Shown piece after piece: positions 13,638 to 34,834 of a stretch of 40,424 nt of DNA. How positions within the stretch are numbered: the stretch's first letter is position 1; every line of letters begins with the position of its first letter. Position numbers and translations under genes: made by a program. Location: positions 1-40,424 of the IMG/VR virus record IMGVR_UViG_3300042924_004017; one strand, written 5' to 3'. This DNA is from a virus. The notes below the pieces were generated by a model. That model was not told where the DNA came from and did not search any database. It saw only the letters and a list, made by a program, of their open reading frames with translations.

Positions 13638-14759
13638 ATGAAGCGTGAATGGCAGCCCGATCGGAAGATCTCAGGCCTCGGGCTGATGGTCCTGCCGTCC
13701 GGTGTCCGCACCTACTACGTCCGCTATCGCGAGCCGTCCGGCAAGCAACAGACCCAGAAGATCGGCCGCGCCGAGGTGGTCAGCCTGACCATGGCGCGCG
13801 AGGAAGCGATCAAGATCCTGGCGGCCGTCGCCAAGGGCGAGGCACCCGGCACTGACAAGCAGCTGCTGCGCCAGGGCAAGACCATCCGCGAGCTCTCCGA
13901 GATGGTCACCGAGAAGCATTACGCCACCCGCGTGCGGCCGAACACCCGCGTCGGCTACGCCGTGCTCTGGAACAAGCACATCCTGCCCAGGATCGGCGCG
14001 GAGAAGGTCGCGACGCTGCAGACCATCCAGGTGATCGACATGCTCGAGGAGCTGCCCCGCGGCCAGCAGAACCGCGCGCTGGCGGTGCTGCGCAAGGCCA
14101 TGAACCTGGCGATGCTGTGGGGCATCCGCGCCAAGGGCACCAACCCGTGCACCGGCATCCAGGCGAACGGCGAGCGCAAGATCAAGCGCTACCTATCCCG
14201 CGATGAGCTCGAGCGGCTGCTCGCTGCACTGGATGCGTTCGCCGACGCCGGCGTGCGCTGGCGCTTCGCGCAGCTGATCAAGCTGCTGCTGCTCACCGGC
14301 TGCCGCGTGCGGGAGATCATGACGGCTCGCTGGGAGTGGCTCGACCAGGACGCAACGGTGCTCACGCTGCCCCCCGACGCTCACAAGACCGGCGGCCAGG
14401 ACGACGAGCGCAAGGTGCATCTGCCGCCTGCAGCGAGTCTCATCCTAAAAGAGCTGCGTCGCAGGTCGAACAGCGAGTGGATCATCGCCGGCGACGGTGA
14501 CGGACACCTGATCGGCTACTGGTATCTGTGGGAGAAGCTGCTCGAGGATGCGCGCATCACGAACCTGCGCGTGCACGACCTGCGCCACTCCTACGCCTCC
14601 TACGCCATCACCACGGCCGGCCTGACGCTGCCGCAGGTCGGTGCGCTGCTGGGGCACGCCAGCCCGCAGACCACCGCCCGCTACGCCCACCTGGTCGATG
14701 AGGCGGCCGCGGCGATGGCTGCGAAGGTGGCGCTGGCGATCAACCCTTCGATGCGGTGA
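13638..14759 (+). CDS. int: Tyrosine-type site-specific integrase
   Basis: 373 aa, ATG 13638. Short N-terminal arm-binding region (LMVLPSGVRTYYVRYREPSG), a SAM-like core-binding domain around residues 85-175, and the catalytic domain. Active-site residues: R223 in TGCRVREI, K250 in HKTGG, H313-x2-R316 in VHDLRHS, H340 in LGH and nucleophile Y349 in RYAHL. It should recombine the adjacent tRNA-Phe attP with the host copy. It is the last plus-strand gene and its 3' end overlaps the convergent dCTP deaminase gene by 20 bases. Length and domain order are normal for P4/lambda-type phage integrases. Confidence 0.95.
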   Translation: MKREWQPDRKISGLGLMVLPSGVRTYYVRYREPSGKQQTQKIGRAEVVSLTMAREEAIKILAAVAKGEAPGTDKQLLRQGKTIRELSEMVTEKHYATRVRPNTRVGYAVLWNKHILPRIGAEKVATLQTIQVIDMLEELPRGQQNRALAVLRKAMNLAMLWGIRAKGTNPCTGIQANGERKIKRYLSRDELERLLAALDAFADAGVRWRFAQLIKLLLLTGCRVREIMTARWEWLDQDATVLTLPPDAHKTGGQDDERKVHLPPAASLILKELRRRSNSEWIIAGDGDGHLIGYWYLWEKLLEDARITNLRVHDLRHSYASYAITTAGLTLPQVGALLGHASPQTTARYAHLVDEAAAAMAAKVALAINPSMR

Positions 14760-19329: not shown

Positions 19330-22300
19330 TTAGATCTGCCTCCCGAACCCGATGGCGGTGTAGGTGAACTGGCGGCTCACGGCGCTGCCGGCACTGTTCC
19401 TAAAGGTTACCTGGAACCCTGTCCGCGTCACGGAGCCAATGGTGAAGTAATCGCCGGTTGCCATGTCGAAGCCCGTCACACCGACACTCGGCGCGGAGTA
19501 GAAGGCGTTCTCGAAGGTGACTGTATAGGTGCCGACACCGCTTGTCAGCGTGGCCGATTGCTCGGTGCGCTGCTGCAGCTCCATTTCCACACCGAGTTCC
19601 TCGATGATGATGTTCTGCGTGGGATCGGTGCTGCTGGCGATCGTTTTGAACTGGAAGCCACGGCCGCGCACGATCGCATTGCTGAACTCACGCCAGGCGC
19701 TCCACGTCGGTGTGCCGCTGGGGTCGTCTTGGGTGGTGCGCACGTAGGTGAGCGCGTTGACGCGATCGCCGCCGGTGCCGTCGATCAGGTCCCAGGTGTC
19801 GATGTCCTCGAGCTTGTCGTCCCAGAAGTCGCCGGGGATGTAGGGCAGGGTGACCAGCCGCCGGCGCAGGTTGGCGTCGAAGACACCGGGGAAGGCGTAG
19901 GTCGAGGCAAACTCGTACTCGCCCGACTCGAGCACGCCACCCACGCTGTCGATCGAGGCCAGGCCATCCCAGTTGCCGTCCGTGGCCATGTCGTCCACGT
20001 CTTCGCCGGTGCTGATGATGATGCCGCTGGCGCCGCCTGCCTCCGCCAGGCTCTCGACATAGAACATGTCGGTGTAGTTGCCGTTGAAGGGCGGGGTTTC
20101 GGTCTCCTCGGCGTAGGTCTGCACCAGCAGGCGCGGCTGCGGGGTCGGCAGGTCCACCACCACCGTGCTGGCCACCAGCGAGCGCCGGCCGCCGTCGTCC
20201 TCGAACTTGACCAGGTAGGTGCCCTCGAGCAGCGGCACCTGCTTCTGCGTCTGGCTGCCGGCGGCAGCGGCCACGATCTCCTGGCTCTCTTCCCACAGCG
20301 CGCCGGTCAGCGCGACGTTGTGGCGGATCAGCACCTTGCCACCGAGTAGCACGTCGAGCTCGGTGCTGCGATCCCAGCTCAGGATCGCGCTGGCGCCGTC
20401 GATCGGGATCAGCGACACGCCGGTGGGGGTAGCCGGTGGCGCGGTCTTGCCGAAGGCGTTCACCGTCAGGCTGGCCGGCTCTACCGACTGCCGCAGGCCG
20501 CCGTTGATGCTGTAGACCTCGATCTCGTAGCGGCCGACGCCGGTGTCGAGGATCTCGTAGTCGAGGCGCGTCTCGGTGACGCTGCTCCAGTTGCCGTTCT
20601 GCGGCCGCCAGCGCACGCGGTACTGGTTGACGCCCGGCGCAGCCTGCCAGCTCAGCACCAATTTCGACAGCGCCCGGCCGTTGTTCTCGTAGAGCGCCTC
20701 CAGCGCCTGCAGGTTGGTGGGCGCCGGAGGGATGATGTTCAGGTTGGTGACATCGCGCTGCTCAAGCTGCAGATCGCGCTCGATGTAGCCGTATTTCGAG
20801 GCGTTGTAGGCCAGCGCGCTGATGGCGTATTGCGCGCCGTCCTGCTCCTGCACCGACAGCACTCGCCAAGTCGAGGTCTGAATGTCACTGGTCTGGTAGA
20901 TCCAGACGCTGTTGGCGTTCGGTGCTGCGGTGAGAGCTGTTGCCAGGGTGATTATGTCGCCTTGGATGGTCTGAACGGCGCGGGATTCAACCGAGCCGTC
21001 GGGCAAGATGACCGAGAGCGTTGCGGTTGAAGAGACTGCCAGGCTGCTGGCGTCGTCCACCGTGACCGCGGTGGTGGTGGCCGAGACAAGCCGGCCGCCG
21101 CGACGTGCACCGGCGCGCGTCGGGTCGCTGATCTCGATGATCTGCCCAGGCCGCACCAGCACGCCGGCGTCGATCGAGGCCGTGAAGCTGACCACCTCGT
21201 TCTCGTACCACTCGGAGTAGAGCAGCCATTCGCCAAGGCGATGCGCCTGGCCGCGAGAGGTGCAGGCGAAGGCGGAGATCTCGCGGGTGATCACGCCGTA
21301 CTTGCCGATCGCCTCCTGGTCCTCGACCACCTCGTAGTCGATGTCGCGCTTGTCGAGGTTGAGCCAGCTGACCACCGCCACGGTCGGGCGTGTCTTGAGG
21401 CTGCCGCCCTGGTAGCTGAAGCCTTCCTCGGAGACGTTCGCCAGGGTGAACAGGTAGGCCGGGTCGCTGGGCCGGTCCTGGCTCACGGTGAGCGCGCCGG
21501 TGCTCCAGTAGGGCATGGCCCGGAAGATCGAGCTCATGTCGTTGATGAGCTTGTAGGCGTCTTCCTGCGTCTGGATGTTGACGTTGCAGGAGAAGCGCGG
21601 CTCCTGGCCTCCGAAGCCGTTGGGCACCAGCTCGGAGGCGTAGCCGGAGGCTGCGTAGAACGCCCACTTGTCGAGCTGCGCGGCTTGGATGTGATCGCCG
21701 AAGCCGTAGCGGCTCGAGGTGAGCAGATCCCACAGGATCCATGCCGGGTCGGTCGTCCACTGCGCGGCGCCGAAGCTGCCATTCCACACGCCGCTGTAGA
21801 TCAGCCGGCCGGTGGTCGAGTCCACCATGGCGTTACTGGGAATGCGGACCTTGATCCCGCGGATCAGGTAGGAGCGACCGGGGATCGAGCTGAACTGTTC
21901 GGCATCGACCCGCAGCGCCACCACCGCGCTGTTGGGATAGCGCAGCTTCGCGTAGGTGATCTCGGTGTAGCTCGACCAGCTGAAGGCGTTCTGGATCTTG
22001 GCGCTGCCGCTGTCGGCCGAGGTGCGGACCAATCGGATGTTGACCGGGAAGGCGCCGGAGAGCCCCACCAGGTAGTCGCGCTGGAACTGGTCGCCGCTCC
22101 GGCCGGACACCGTGTCGGCGATCACTGTGTTGTAGCCACCGCCGTTGTACTGGACTTGGATCTCGAAGCTGAAGCTCGAGCCGTTGATGTCGCCGTTGTT
22201 GGCAAACTCCTGCAGCGCTGGCACCGTGATGGTGATGCGTGCGGCGTTGACCGTCGAGCTGGTGATACTGCGCACGATCGGGGCGCCGTATTGCACCTGC

Positions 22301-23073
22301 ACACTCACCGGCTTCTCGTTCTCAACGTCAGCCGTGATCGGGATGTAGCTCTGGTTCTGCGTTCCGTAGCGGTAATCGACCGTGACGTTCTTGAAGTTGT
22401 AGGAACCGTCGGCGTTCTGCAGCGGTACGTTGTCAATAAAGACAGACTGATAGCCGTTCTTCAGACCCTGAATCTCACCCTCGCTGATCAGATCAACCAG
22501 GCTGGCGTATTGCGTGCTGTTGAGGTTGTCGCCGGCCTCTGTCGGCGTGTAGGTGGTCTGGCTGCCACCGCCACCGCCCTTGCCGCTGCTGCTGCGGCTG
22601 CCGCCACCGCCAGCTCCGGCGATGCCCAGGCCGAGGCCGGCGTTGTGCACGCGGATGCCGCCCGCGATGAAGGTGTGGTGGCCCTCGACGGTGAGGTTGT
22701 AGACGGTGCCGCGGCCATGGTCGGCGCGGTCCACGATCGGCCGTAGGTGGCCGTTCTCGTCCACCAAGCAATCGTCGGGGCCGAGCGTGTCGATCTCAAC
22801 GAAGGCGTTGTACTGGTTGAGCACCCAGTGGTTCGGGGTGGCATCCAGCACCGCGCCGCCCCACAGGCTGTAGCGGACCACCCGCTCGCCTTCGTGCACA
22901 TGCACCTTGAGGATCTTGGCCTGATGCAGCTGGCCGCGATCATCGAAGCTCAGCACCAGGTCGCCGGGCTGCAGCGTCTCGATCGCGCGCTGCCCATCAG
23001 GCGTGCGCACCAGCGTGTGCCCTAGGAAGCAGCCGCCGCCGCCACCGCCGCCTGCGCCGAAGATCCTGCTCAT
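19330..23073 (-). CDS. J: Tail tip protein J (host specificity) with inserted intein-like domain
   Basis: 1247 aa, ATG 23073 overlapping the gpI stop. From residue 145 on it follows lambda gpJ: a Gly-rich N-terminal stretch, the SLVDLISEGEIQGLKNG motif, long beta domains, fibronectin-III-like repeats (near TPTGVSLIPIDGASAILSWD) and a C-terminal region probably contacting the receptor. It forms the central tail tip and sets host range. Unusually, residues 15-144 are a Hint (intein-like) domain placed after only 14 residues (MSRIFGAG and a run of Gly), listed separately. Neighbours I, K, L and M are in lambda order. Confidence 0.92.
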   Translation of the reverse strand: MSRIFGAGGGGGGGCFLGHTLVRTPDGQRAIETLQPGDLVLSFDDRGQLHQAKILKVHVHEGERVVRYSLWGGAVLDATPNHWVLNQYNAFVEIDTLGPDDCLVDENGHLRPIVDRADHGRGTVYNLTVEGHHTFIAGGIRVHNAGLGLGIAGAGGGGSRSSSGKGGGGGSQTTYTPTEAGDNLNSTQYASLVDLISEGEIQGLKNGYQSVFIDNVPLQNADGSYNFKNVTVDYRYGTQNQSYIPITADVENEKPVSVQVQYGAPIVRSITSSTVNAARITITVPALQEFANNGDINGSSFSFEIQVQYNGGGYNTVIADTVSGRSGDQFQRDYLVGLSGAFPVNIRLVRTSADSGSAKIQNAFSWSSYTEITYAKLRYPNSAVVALRVDAEQFSSIPGRSYLIRGIKVRIPSNAMVDSTTGRLIYSGVWNGSFGAAQWTTDPAWILWDLLTSSRYGFGDHIQAAQLDKWAFYAASGYASELVPNGFGGQEPRFSCNVNIQTQEDAYKLINDMSSIFRAMPYWSTGALTVSQDRPSDPAYLFTLANVSEEGFSYQGGSLKTRPTVAVVSWLNLDKRDIDYEVVEDQEAIGKYGVITREISAFACTSRGQAHRLGEWLLYSEWYENEVVSFTASIDAGVLVRPGQIIEISDPTRAGARRGGRLVSATTTAVTVDDASSLAVSSTATLSVILPDGSVESRAVQTIQGDIITLATALTAAPNANSVWIYQTSDIQTSTWRVLSVQEQDGAQYAISALAYNASKYGYIERDLQLEQRDVTNLNIIPPAPTNLQALEALYENNGRALSKLVLSWQAAPGVNQYRVRWRPQNGNWSSVTETRLDYEILDTGVGRYEIEVYSINGGLRQSVEPASLTVNAFGKTAPPATPTGVSLIPIDGASAILSWDRSTELDVLLGGKVLIRHNVALTGALWEESQEIVAAAAGSQTQKQVPLLEGTYLVKFEDDGGRRSLVASTVVVDLPTPQPRLLVQTYAEETETPPFNGNYTDMFYVESLAEAGGASGIIISTGEDVDDMATDGNWDGLASIDSVGGVLESGEYEFASTYAFPGVFDANLRRRLVTLPYIPGDFWDDKLEDIDTWDLIDGTGGDRVNALTYVRTTQDDPSGTPTWSAWREFSNAIVRGRGFQFKTIASSTDPTQNIIIEELGVEMELQQRTEQSATLTSGVGTYTVTFENAFYSAPSVGVTGFDMATGDYFTIGSVTRTGFQVTFRNSAGSAVSRQFTYTAIGFGRQI
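22642..23031 (-). other. Mini-intein / bacterial intein-like (Hint) domain within gpJ
   Basis: 130 residues (15-144 of gpJ). Block A CFLGHTLVRTPDGQRAIETL begins with Cys. Block B is LDATPNHWVL (TxxH). Block F is GTVYNLTVEGHHTFIAGG and block G ends IRVHN. No homing endonuclease is inserted. The residue after the terminal Asn is Ala145, not Cys, Ser or Thr as normal splicing needs. That favours self-cleavage, as in bacterial intein-like domains, over clean protein splicing. Both flanks are Gly-rich. Confidence 0.85.
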
Positions 23074-23645
23074 GTCTGCACCGTGTCGATACCAGCCGAG
23101 ATCACGACGGAACCGACCAGGGTCTCGCCGTAGACGATCGGCACCGGAACGCCGGCGCGACTGGTCTGCTGGATGCCGGAGAAGGAGTAAGACTTCCGCG
23201 GATCCTTGGCCGTTTCAGCGGTGCCCCCGTAGGGCGAGTTCAGTGCTGGCACCGGCGTAAGCAGCTGCGCCACGCCGCCGAGCACCAGGCTGGCGCCGAT
23301 ACCGAAGGCGATGGTTCCCAGCGCGATGCCGGCCACCGGCGGCAGGAAGAATGACAGCGCAATGAGCGCCACCCCGGCGATGATGCGACCCACCGCACCA
23401 GCACCGGCCACCACCGGGATGATCCTGATCTCCTGCTGCCCTGCAGGATCGTGCAGCTCATCCTCGGCCAGGTCGTAGCCGCCGACGCTCAGCCGGTAGT
23501 GCCCCTTCGACAGTTCGGGCTCGAGCTGCGGGAAATTGGCCAGCAGGAAGCGCACGGCCTCCGCTGCGCTGGCTACCTCAGCCTGGAACTTCCGGCGCTT
23601 CAGGAACTTCGCCAGGCGCCCGTAGATGCGGATCGTTCGCAGCAT
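23070..23645 (-). CDS. I: Tail assembly protein I
   Basis: 191 aa from ATG 23645, which forms ATGA with the K stop; the longer reading is not supported. Residues 1-80 look like a ubiquitin-like fold (TIRIYGRLAKFLKRRKFQAE, then YRLSVGGYDL), followed by hydrophobic segments (VGRIIAGVALIALSFFLPPV, IALGTIAFGIGASLVLGGVA) typical of lambda gpI relatives. The C terminus ends SRAGVPVPIVYGETLVGS. It acts in assembly of the tail tip with J, K and L. Confidence 0.85.
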   Translation of the reverse strand: MLRTIRIYGRLAKFLKRRKFQAEVASAAEAVRFLLANFPQLEPELSKGHYRLSVGGYDLAEDELHDPAGQQEIRIIPVVAGAGAVGRIIAGVALIALSFFLPPVAGIALGTIAFGIGASLVLGGVAQLLTPVPALNSPYGGTAETAKDPRKSYSFSGIQQTSRAGVPVPIVYGETLVGSVVISAGIDTVQT

Positions 23646-24367
23646 CAGCCCAGCGTGAGCCTCCCTGCATCGTAATGGCGGAGCCTGCGGCCAGTGCACT
23701 TCTGCAGCCAGCCGCCATAAAGGTCACGGCTGCTCAGCCGGCCGCGGATGTGATGCAGCACCAGCTGGTCGCCGATGTAGACGCCGACATGGTTCAGTCC
23801 TGGCCCGCTGATGCTCATCAGCAGCGCATCGCCCGGCTCAAGTCCGTCTTCATCCTCGAGCTCGCTGAAGCCGGCGTCCTTCCAGAACCGGTCAAACAGC
23901 GGCTCCGCCTCAAACAGCTCCGGCGTCAGCGGCCGCTCCCAGTCCGGCAGCTGCAGGCCGTGCTCGGCGTACCAGTCGCGCGTCAGCGTCCAGCAATCGG
24001 TGAGCCCCCACACCCACTCGCGGCCGATCAGCGGCGCCTGGTAGCCGGTGGGGCGCAGCTCGGGGCTCCAGGCCTCGGTCTTGGGGTTGACGATCCACCA
24101 CGGCAGGCCGCTGCGCTCGATCGCCAGCAGGTCGGCCTGGCTGGGCTGCGGGGGTGTGACCGGGTGGCTGTGGAACACCGCCACGATCTCGCCGGCGTCC
24201 TCGGCTGCGGCGTAGTCGTCGGGGTCGAGGATGAACTGCTCGGTGCCGGCCGACAGGTTGCGGCAGGGCCAGTAGCGCTCGCGGCCCTTGACCACCACCA
24301 CCAGGCCGCAGGCCTCGCGCGGGTCTTCCTGCTGGGCGTGCTGCAGGGCTGCCTCGCGCCAGGTCAT
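23645..24367 (-). CDS. K: Tail tip peptidase K (JAB/MPN plus NlpC/P60)
   Basis: 240 aa from ATG 24367, ATGA overlap with L. N-terminal JAB metalloprotease domain: [17 protein letters not shown] with H66, H68 and D79 as zinc ligands. C-terminal NlpC/P60 domain: [12 protein letters not shown] with C125 and [10 protein letters not shown] with H193. This matches lambda gpK, which assists tail tip assembly and may cut peptidoglycan on entry. All key residues are present. Confidence 0.9.
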
Positions 24368-32917: not shown

Positions 32918-34834
32918 TCAGGTGGTGATGTCGAGGATGGCAGCGAAGCTCTTGGGATCGCGCACGGCCACGTCGTAGGAGACGATGCCGCGGACGCTGG
33001 TCAGAGCCTTGCTGAAGTCGTCCTGGTCCTCACCCACGGTGATCTCGAGGCCGTTGCCCCAGAAGCCCACCATGGCCTGGCTGAAGTCACCCATCACCAG
33101 AGCGGAGCAGACGCCGCTACTGGTGCCCTTGGTCAGGTTGCTGGGCACCTGGTTGGTCAGGGCGAGAGGGTAGCCGTTCAGGTTCGCGGGGGTAGGACCG
33201 CGGCCGATGGCGTTCAGCTGATCGTTGACCAGGAAGGGGCCGTCGCCGGTGGTGGAACCACCTGCGCGCAGCTTCTTCAGGGCAGCGGACACCTTGTAGT
33301 TGGTGAGGTAGGCCACGTTCGCAGCGTTCACCACGCCGTTGGCCTGCATCACGGCAGCTTCCAGATCCACCACCTTCTCGACGGTGATGGCGCCACCGTT
33401 GGTGCCCATGGCCACCGAGCCGATGCCGGAGGTCTGCATGATGCCGGTGGGCTGGCCGCTGGAGCCGGAGCCGTTCAGGATGCCGAGGTCGATGGCCAGG
33501 TTGATGCCATCGGTCAGGTCACGACGGACCAGCTCCTCGATGCCAGGGGTGCCCTGCAGCAGGGTCTGGCGGCTGTACTTGGACAGGGCTGCCAGATTCT
33601 TCGGGCTCATGGTCACCTGGTCGAAGGTGGACTCCGACTGGGTGATCGCGGTGGTCTGGGTGCTCAGGTAGTAGGTCGAGGCCACACCGGAGCGGCGGGG
33701 GATGGCGACGTTGCCAACCAGGCCGGGCATGGTGCGCACGCCGAGCTGAAGCATCAGCGCGTTGTTCCGCAGGAACTCGATGAAGTCATCGGCCAGCAGA
33801 TCGGTGGCGACCAGGTTGCCGCCGGTGGTGGCACCAGAGGTCACGTAGGTGGCGCGCTGATTGAGAGCAGCGAACGGCACGAAGAAGGAACGCTCGGCGC
33901 TCTTGGTGATGCCGGACTTCTCGACTTCCTTGGAGAGCTCGCGCACCAGGCCGGCCTCGCGGGAAGACCAGTCGCCGGTCAGCATCGCGCGGATGCCGGC
34001 GGTGATGCTGTAGGAGGCACGCTCCTGGGCAGCCATCTCGACGGGAGCCACGGTCTCGACGGGCTTGGCGCCCAGCTTGTCGAGCACAGCAGCGCGAGCG
34101 TCATCGAGGCTGCGGCCGCCTTCGATCAGCTGACGGCCGAGATCGGCCATGCCGTGCTTCTCGGTCAGAGCAGTGATGCCGGCGATACGGGCGCGCTCAG
34201 CCTTAGCAGCCTCGGCAGCCGCTTCAGCCCGCACCGCTGAAAGATCAGGGGTGTTTTCCATCGGAACCTCAGGTTCTGGTTGGGGGGTTGGAGTTGCGGC
34301 GGGGGCCGCAGGTTGAGCGTCGAGAGCACGCCCGACGCCGACCGTTGGGTCTGCAGGTATGCTAACCACGCTCACTTCGTAGGGACTCCAGCTTGTCGCT
34401 ACGAAGTCGCCCGAGCCACGCTGCTCCATCTCATTGATGGCGTAGCCGAAGCTCACATTCCGCAGCACGCCGTCGCGAACGTCGGCGAGCACTTCCTGCG
34501 CGAAGGCATTGCGGCTGAACCGCACGTTCACGTAGCCGCGCTTCTTTTTGCCGTCGATCCAGGCGCGCTCGACCACGCCGATCACTTTGTTCGGGTCGTG
34601 GTTGAACAGCAGCGGCGCCGAATCGTTCAGGCGGCCGAGATCCACGCTGCGCTCATCGTGCTGCAGGATCTCGTTCCCGAAGTAACGGGCGACGGGGTAT
34701 TCAGAACTGAAGGGGAACTCGATAGAGCGCTCGTCATCGCTGACCGTGAAGTCAGCTACCTCGGCGCGCTTCAGCAGCTGCCCCTCAAGATCACGCGATA
34801 GGTCCATCGGTGTTCTCGGTGTCATCTTCGCCAT
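32918..34834 (-). CDS. Fused prohead protease and HK97-fold major capsid protein
   Basis: 638 aa, ATG 34834 (34825 and 34807 are in-frame alternatives), start within the portal gene. Residues 25-170 are an S78-type prohead protease: LLFNHDPNKVIGVVERAWID with H79, VRDGVLRNVSFGY with S128, and SPYEVSVVSIPADP. A Pro/Glu linker (172-195) and a helical scaffold-like delta region (200-255) lead to the HK97-fold capsid: RATYVTSGATTGGNLVATDL, VAIPRRSGVASTYYLS, DLTDGINLAIDLGILNGSG. Protease, scaffold and capsid are thus made as one chain. No separate scaffold or protease gene is present. Confidence 0.9.
   Translation of the reverse strand: MAKMTPRTPMDLSRDLEGQLLKRAEVADFTVSDDERSIEFPFSSEYPVARYFGNEILQHDERSVDLGRLNDSAPLLFNHDPNKVIGVVERAWIDGKKKRGYVNVRFSRNAFAQEVLADVRDGVLRNVSFGYAINEMEQRGSGDFVATSWSPYEVSVVSIPADPTVGVGRALDAQPAAPAATPTPQPEPEVPMENTPDLSAVRAEAAAEAAKAERARIAGITALTEKHGMADLGRQLIEGGRSLDDARAAVLDKLGAKPVETVAPVEMAAQERASYSITAGIRAMLTGDWSSREAGLVRELSKEVEKSGITKSAERSFFVPFAALNQRATYVTSGATTGGNLVATDLLADDFIEFLRNNALMLQLGVRTMPGLVGNVAIPRRSGVASTYYLSTQTTAITQSESTFDQVTMSPKNLAALSKYSRQTLLQGTPGIEELVRRDLTDGINLAIDLGILNGSGSSGQPTGIMQTSGIGSVAMGTNGGAITVEKVVDLEAAVMQANGVVNAANVAYLTNYKVSAALKKLRAGGSTTGDGPFLVNDQLNAIGRGPTPANLNGYPLALTNQVPSNLTKGTSSGVCSALVMGDFSQAMVGFWGNGLEITVGEDQDDFSKALTSVRGIVSYDVAVRDPKSFAAILDITT

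Follow-up and report, generated by a model that had tools for sequence, protein, structure and literature searches.

How a phage tail tip protein comes to carry an intein-like (Hint) domain at its very N terminus, and whether that domain stays there, is the question raised by the window, the whole stretch of 40,424 nucleotides analysed here. The ORF carrying the domain matches PHROG_31 ("central tail fiber J", 3.7e-246) and the Pfam families FNIII-A_GpJ (4.4e-35) and Phage-tail_3 (5.3e-22). It is preceded by genes assigned with Pfam and PHROGs to gpI, a gpK with JAB and NlpC/P60 domains, gpL, gpM and the tape measure protein (Table 1). The tail tip of phage lambda is built around the same protein, a gpJ trimer surrounding a gpI plug and assembling with gpI and gpL (PMC10721106).

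The Hint domain of gpJ

The original prediction had placed in gpJ a domain of 130 residues, inserted after only 14 residues of the protein, that starts with Cys, contains TxxH and HHTF, ends in VHN and is followed by Ala at +1. Its coordinates proved exact and all of these motifs are present, TxxH as TPNH and the C-terminal end reading VYNLTVEGHHTFIAGGIRVHN (GHHTF, VHN) before A145. The profile search that it had called for returned matches to PT-HINT (1.3e-8) and Hint_2 (1e-7) in Pfam and to both intein_Nterm and intein_Cterm in NCBIfam, and a phmmer search of the PDB gave as top match 2lwy, a bacterial intein-like (BIL) domain of C. thermocellum (1.2e-6). No family clearly modelling the gpJ Hint was found in PHROGs. 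The domain was modeled using AlphaFold2 from an input alignment of 50 sequences, with pLDDT of ~93-98 across the Hint and disordered flanks. Superposition with VIA-align (Foldseek was also run) matched DnaB inteins, the RecA mini-intein, BUBL BIL2, gp41-1 and BIL4 with Z 20-22 over 126-139 residues, the rmsd being mostly 1.3-1.8. Residues 15-144 of gpJ are a complete Hint domain, and no endonuclease is encoded within it.

Table 1. Features of the gpJ locus, with positions in the window.
Feature	Position	Strand	Basis
gpJ, lambda-type tail tip / host specificity protein, 1247 aa, carrying the Hint	19330..23073	(-)	PHROG_31, Pfam
gpI-type tail assembly protein, overlapping the gpJ start	23070..23699	(-)	PHROG_32 tail assembly protein, 4.4e-48
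N-terminal flank, residues 1-14, MSRIFGAGGGGGGG, with signature [ILV]xG[AS]xGG	23032..23073	(-)	Signature in 111/116 Hint-bearing copies
Hint domain, A-type-BIL-like, no endonuclease, gpJ residues 15-144 (C15...N144)	22642..23031	(-)	Profiles, PDB search, model
Cys1 of the Hint (gpJ C15), predicted N-S acyl shift nucleophile	23029..23031	(-)	Invariant, 116/116; codon only TGC/TGT
Block B T-x-N-H (gpJ T79-P-N-H82)	22828..22839	(-)	T, N and H invariant; partly ascertained
Block G His-Asn (gpJ H143-N144), predicted Asn cyclisation	22642..22647	(-)	Invariant, 116/116; codon changes synonymous only
C-terminal flank AGLGLGIAGAGGGGSRSSSGKGG, +1 Ala, second signature copy	22573..22641	(-)	AGLG in 105/105 clade-1 copies

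Conservation at a single gpJ site

In pattern scans, 448 and 525 stretches of IMG/VR proved to encode relatives; the best 80 of each were read, and further scans were seeded with the copy of an Oxalobacter prophage and with a copy from a cyanobacterial genome. The set read comprises 116 distinct gpJ-Hints; a 117th sequence (L169) is an unrelated BIL and was left out. All 116 copies, among the matches listed, lie in gpJ of phages or prophages, and all show the same arrangement: a short N-terminal flank with Gly as its last residue, then the Hint, then gpJ. Cys1, His-Asn, Gly-1 and Ala/Gly+1 are unchanged in every one of these 116 listed copies, as is T-x-N-H, whose invariance is partly ascertained because block B and block F residues were partly in the search patterns. 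By contrast, C1, HN, -1 and +1 were absent from every search pattern. The +1 residue is Ala in 105 and Gly in 11 of the 116 listed copies, and none has Cys, Ser or Thr there. The prediction that a Hint lacking the +1 nucleophile is conserved across the phage group is thus borne out in the 116 copies listed, and the random loss of catalytic Cys, His and Asn that would have marked an inert domain was not seen in them; since only the best matches were returned, strongly decayed copies may be under-sampled. Other sampled Hints vary at these borders: of 26 toxin-type BILs and inteins taken from bacterial genomes, all outside gpJ, five have Gly-1 and three have Ala/Gly+1.

The C-terminal flank divides the 116 listed copies into clade 1 (AGLG, 105 copies), clade 2 (GGHR or GGFR, 10) and clade 3 (GGGG, one), the Hints of clades 2 and 3 sharing 41 to 56% identity with that of the window. 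The signature of the N-terminal flank is also that of gpJ itself, as the gpJs of cultured phages of Acinetobacter, Halomonas, Rhizobium, Stenotrophomonas, Pseudomonas and Synechococcus mostly start with a similar motif, which lambda gpJ lacks. In clades 1 and 2 a second copy stands in the C-terminal flank; clade 3 (L162/L213) has it in the N-terminal flank only, its C-terminal flank being GGGGKSGG. Covariation of the two copies was significant by shuffling at one position, was carried by two pairs only, and was not used.

The Hint is kept intact by purifying selection. In 89 sequences of clade 1, from which 1612 pairs gave usable dS, the Hint has a median dN/dS of 0.14 and the gpJ body one of 0.29, and the codons of the catalytic residues show synonymous changes only. 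In contig L078 the N-terminal flank is frameshifted, which may be a sequencing error.

Empty sites, transfer and hosts

A comparison of gpJ homologues with and without the insert, as the original prediction had suggested, revealed empty alleles. The closest, L185, has a gpJ 84% identical to that of the window with the N terminus MSRIFGAGGGGGGGGGKGG, and the piece missing from it is the Hint plus AGLGLGIAGAG; L193-L198 also have an empty site, with 67 to 71% identity in the gpJ body. The empty site is a Gly tract predicted to be disordered, and when a Hint-less relative was modeled its first 25 residues had very low confidence, as for a disordered tail, so that an insert would be sterically tolerable there. 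Other Hint-less gpJs, namely those of lambda, KBS-S-2A, Silvergun, H4907, L338C and others, are the same tail tip protein in the same gene order.

In a 121-tip gpJ tree, Hint presence changes nine times by parsimony and at least seven times with weak nodes collapsed, compared with at least 13 times for shuffled labels. Within clade 1, Hint and gpJ distances correlate (r 0.64), which argues for much vertical descent. Horizontal transfer is clear in the pair L214 and L080, in which near-identical Hints (96% identity in protein, 88% in DNA) lie in phages whose gpJ and gpI are only 40% and 38% identical. L214 is a relative of the Synechococcus cyanophage KBS-S-2A. The alignable DNA of the pair is a single 473-bp block reaching from 18 bp upstream of the Hint to ~62 bp downstream and ending in Gly-codon tracts, and the G+C content of Hint and surrounding gpJ is 0.54 vs 0.47 and 0.58 vs 0.46. 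At least one transfer of the Hint between distantly related phages, into the same gpJ site, is therefore shown. Recombination within GGN (Gly-codon) tracts is a reasonable route for gain and loss alike: the Hint with its Gly-coding borders would move between gpJ genes through such tracts and be lost in the same way. The Hint is an A-type-BIL-like element that is mobile without an endonuclease and keeps to a single gpJ site.

The Hint-bearing phages form a large uncultured group, probably of freshwater cyanobacterial phages. The sole host hint for the group is a 7-kb contig (L146, or G002:C158) that carries an 89%-identical Hint and was binned in a cyanobacterial MAG (K_Offshore_surface). Among 50,697 records of cultured phages, tblastn found only helicase, terminase and hypothetical-protein matches below 60% identity, none of them in an annotated gpJ. 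A gpJ-Hint was found in 399 genomes of the Oxalobacter order only in the Oxalobacter source, in 369 genomes of the wider class only in Oxalobacter, and in 291 cyanobacterial genomes only in G002, the source of L146, and G562. The remaining matches read in these genome surveys were toxin-type BILs or inteins, and a survey of the PT-HINT family in 59 cyanobacterial genomes added mostly inteins. Outside phages, a secreted-looking cyanobacterial protein (L177) has a BIL-type Hint right behind poly-Gly (RGGGGGGGG|CFAGDT...LVHN|KGGSG).

Known relatives and possible routes of processing

The fold and the chemistry class of the gpJ Hint are known already. A-type BILs (Amitai 2003), especially C. thermocellum BIL4 (2lwy; Z 20.6, rmsd 1.6, 132 residues), are likewise Hints of ~130 residues with Cys1, TxxH, a C-terminal His-Asn, no endonuclease and a non-nucleophilic +1. 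Of the features that define this type, the gpJ Hint has blocks A, B, F and G without an endonuclease, His-Asn in 116 of 116 copies and no +1 nucleophile; for autocatalytic cleavage or splicing the pointers are indirect, namely the invariant catalytic residues and the dN/dS of 0.14. A-type BILs are located in bacterial proteins, mostly secreted ones, and there in variable regions, whereas the gpJ Hint occupies a single fixed site in a phage tail tip, has Gly at -1 and Ala or Gly at +1 in all the matches listed, and is transferred horizontally between phages. Since the gpJ-only location is a difference in distribution and not in mechanism, we use the term A-type-BIL-like. Class 1 inteins and mini-inteins (Npu and Ssp DnaB, Mtu RecA, gp41-1) share the fold (Z 20-22), blocks A, B, F and G, a patchy distribution, a fixed site and horizontal transfer; they differ in having Cys, Ser or Thr at +1 and in sitting in a conserved functional motif, whereas the gpJ Hint has none of these residues at +1, sits in a disordered Gly linker and has no endonuclease. 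A class 3 intein was rejected, as the gpJ Hint has Cys1 and its block F (VYNLTV) places Asn at the position of the WCT-motif Cys. Rejected too was a Hedgehog (Hog) Hint, as the domain ends in His-Asn and runs straight into gpJ with no sterol-recognition region. The best viral match among predicted structures is A0A218MKA3 ("putative gp62" of an uncultured virus, 37% identity), and BFVD also holds unnamed Hint proteins; we found no description of a function for these.

That selection has kept the element intact and that it has moved at the same spot suggests that the Hint excises itself from gpJ, an essential virion protein, and autoprocessing of some kind is very probable. That it stays in the virion as an inactive structural domain, for instance as a folded tail tip plug or spacer, is highly improbable: a disordered N terminus could in principle tolerate a domain, but the catalytic residues are all invariant with synonymous codon changes only, the constraint exceeds that on gpJ, and close relatives lack the Hint.

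If the domain is active, its residues and flanks would tip the balance modestly towards splicing over cleavage. The original prediction held that splicing requires Cys, Ser or Thr at +1, a premise that is not safe and is contradicted by the 2lwy BIL: aminolysis splicing has reportedly been proposed for this C. thermocellum domain, which like the window's gpJ Hint has Ala at +1 (Dassa 2004 and Aranko 2013, cited in PMC7664689 and PMC7765530). By this route, Cys1 would form a thioester with Gly-1, cyclisation of Asn130 would release the amino end of Ala/Gly+1, and this free, unhindered amine would attack the thioester and join the flanks. Spliced gpJ would then carry the canonical signature N terminus followed by AGLG..., and part of the product may be cleaved instead. 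Three observations favour splicing. First, Cys1, Gly-1 and the N-terminal flank are conserved, which is unexpected under C-terminal cleavage alone. Second, direct aminolysis would meet the least hindrance with Gly-1 and Gly/Ala+1. Third, in clade 3, where the signature is confined to the N-terminal flank, only splicing would keep it on gpJ and give the usual N terminus. We therefore lean towards a Hint that resides in the Gly-rich, disordered N-terminal stretch of gpJ and excises itself after translation, likely by nucleophile-free splicing. What speaks against splicing is that a selfish element in a tolerant linker would be easily lost, and its abundance suggests a benefit beyond splicing.

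The strongest competing explanation, a serious one although less likely, is maturation by cleavage, in which Asn130 cyclisation, with or without Cys1-dependent N-terminal cleavage, would yield a virion gpJ beginning at Ala145 (AGLGLGIAGAGGGG...). The absence of a +1 nucleophile in gpJ Hints fits this reading, as do the reports that BILs without this nucleophile give mainly cleaved products (PMC7664689) and, in a review, that A-type BILs are unable to ligate (PMC7765530). AGLG is invariant in the 105 clade-1 copies listed. In clades 1 and 2 the signature recurs in the C-terminal flank, so that a gpJ cleaved only at the C-terminal border of the Hint would likewise begin with a canonical-looking sequence, resembling the N terminus of Hint-less gpJ. 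However, neither Cys1 nor Gly-1 nor a signature-bearing N-terminal flank is needed for C-terminal cleavage, and GGGGKSGG of clade 3 carries no signature. The same conserved Cys1, Gly-1 and N-terminal flank, with a trimeric gpJ that assembles together with gpI and gpL, could suit a Hedgehog-like reaction in which the Cys1 thioester couples the N-terminal peptide to a partner (an adjacent gpJ, gpI, gpL or a lipid) during tail tip assembly; this is the least probable of the readings, since the invariant Asn and small +1 residue would be unnecessary and the Hint stops at His-Asn right before gpJ, leaving no sterol-recognition-like region.

Returning to splicing, we tentatively propose, as a broader and less certain claim, an endonuclease-free, phage-mobile, gpJ-restricted BIL-type element that splices without a +1 side-chain nucleophile through an unhindered Gly-1 and Ala/Gly+1, and whose excision may set the timing of tail tip assembly or license it. 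Searches of the open-access literature turned up nothing on inteins or BILs in tail or host specificity proteins, nor any account of a BIL-type element that is confined to gpJ, occurs widely among uncultured phages and moves without an endonuclease. A domain that probably excises itself would here sit in an essential virion protein of phages that form a widespread uncultured group and, if so, would be a case of naturally occurring protein processing in the siphophage tail tip. The gpJ Hint shows intein-like mobility without a homing endonuclease, and its more than 100 natural copies with Gly/Ala+1 provide material for work on nucleophile-free splicing, studied in very few BILs.

Three further features of the window were noted. 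At the C terminus of gpJ, residues ~1183-1240 (window 19354-19527) match the Pfam H-type lectin family below its curated cut-off (E 0.001), possibly a receptor-binding lectin domain. An integrase family match at 13638-14759 (+) (PHROG_1, 4e-58) suggests a temperate phage, although relatives turn up mostly as viral contigs. Finally, the 638-aa protein encoded at 32918-34834 (-) has major head protein and head maturation protease family matches along one chain and is probably a protease-capsid fusion.
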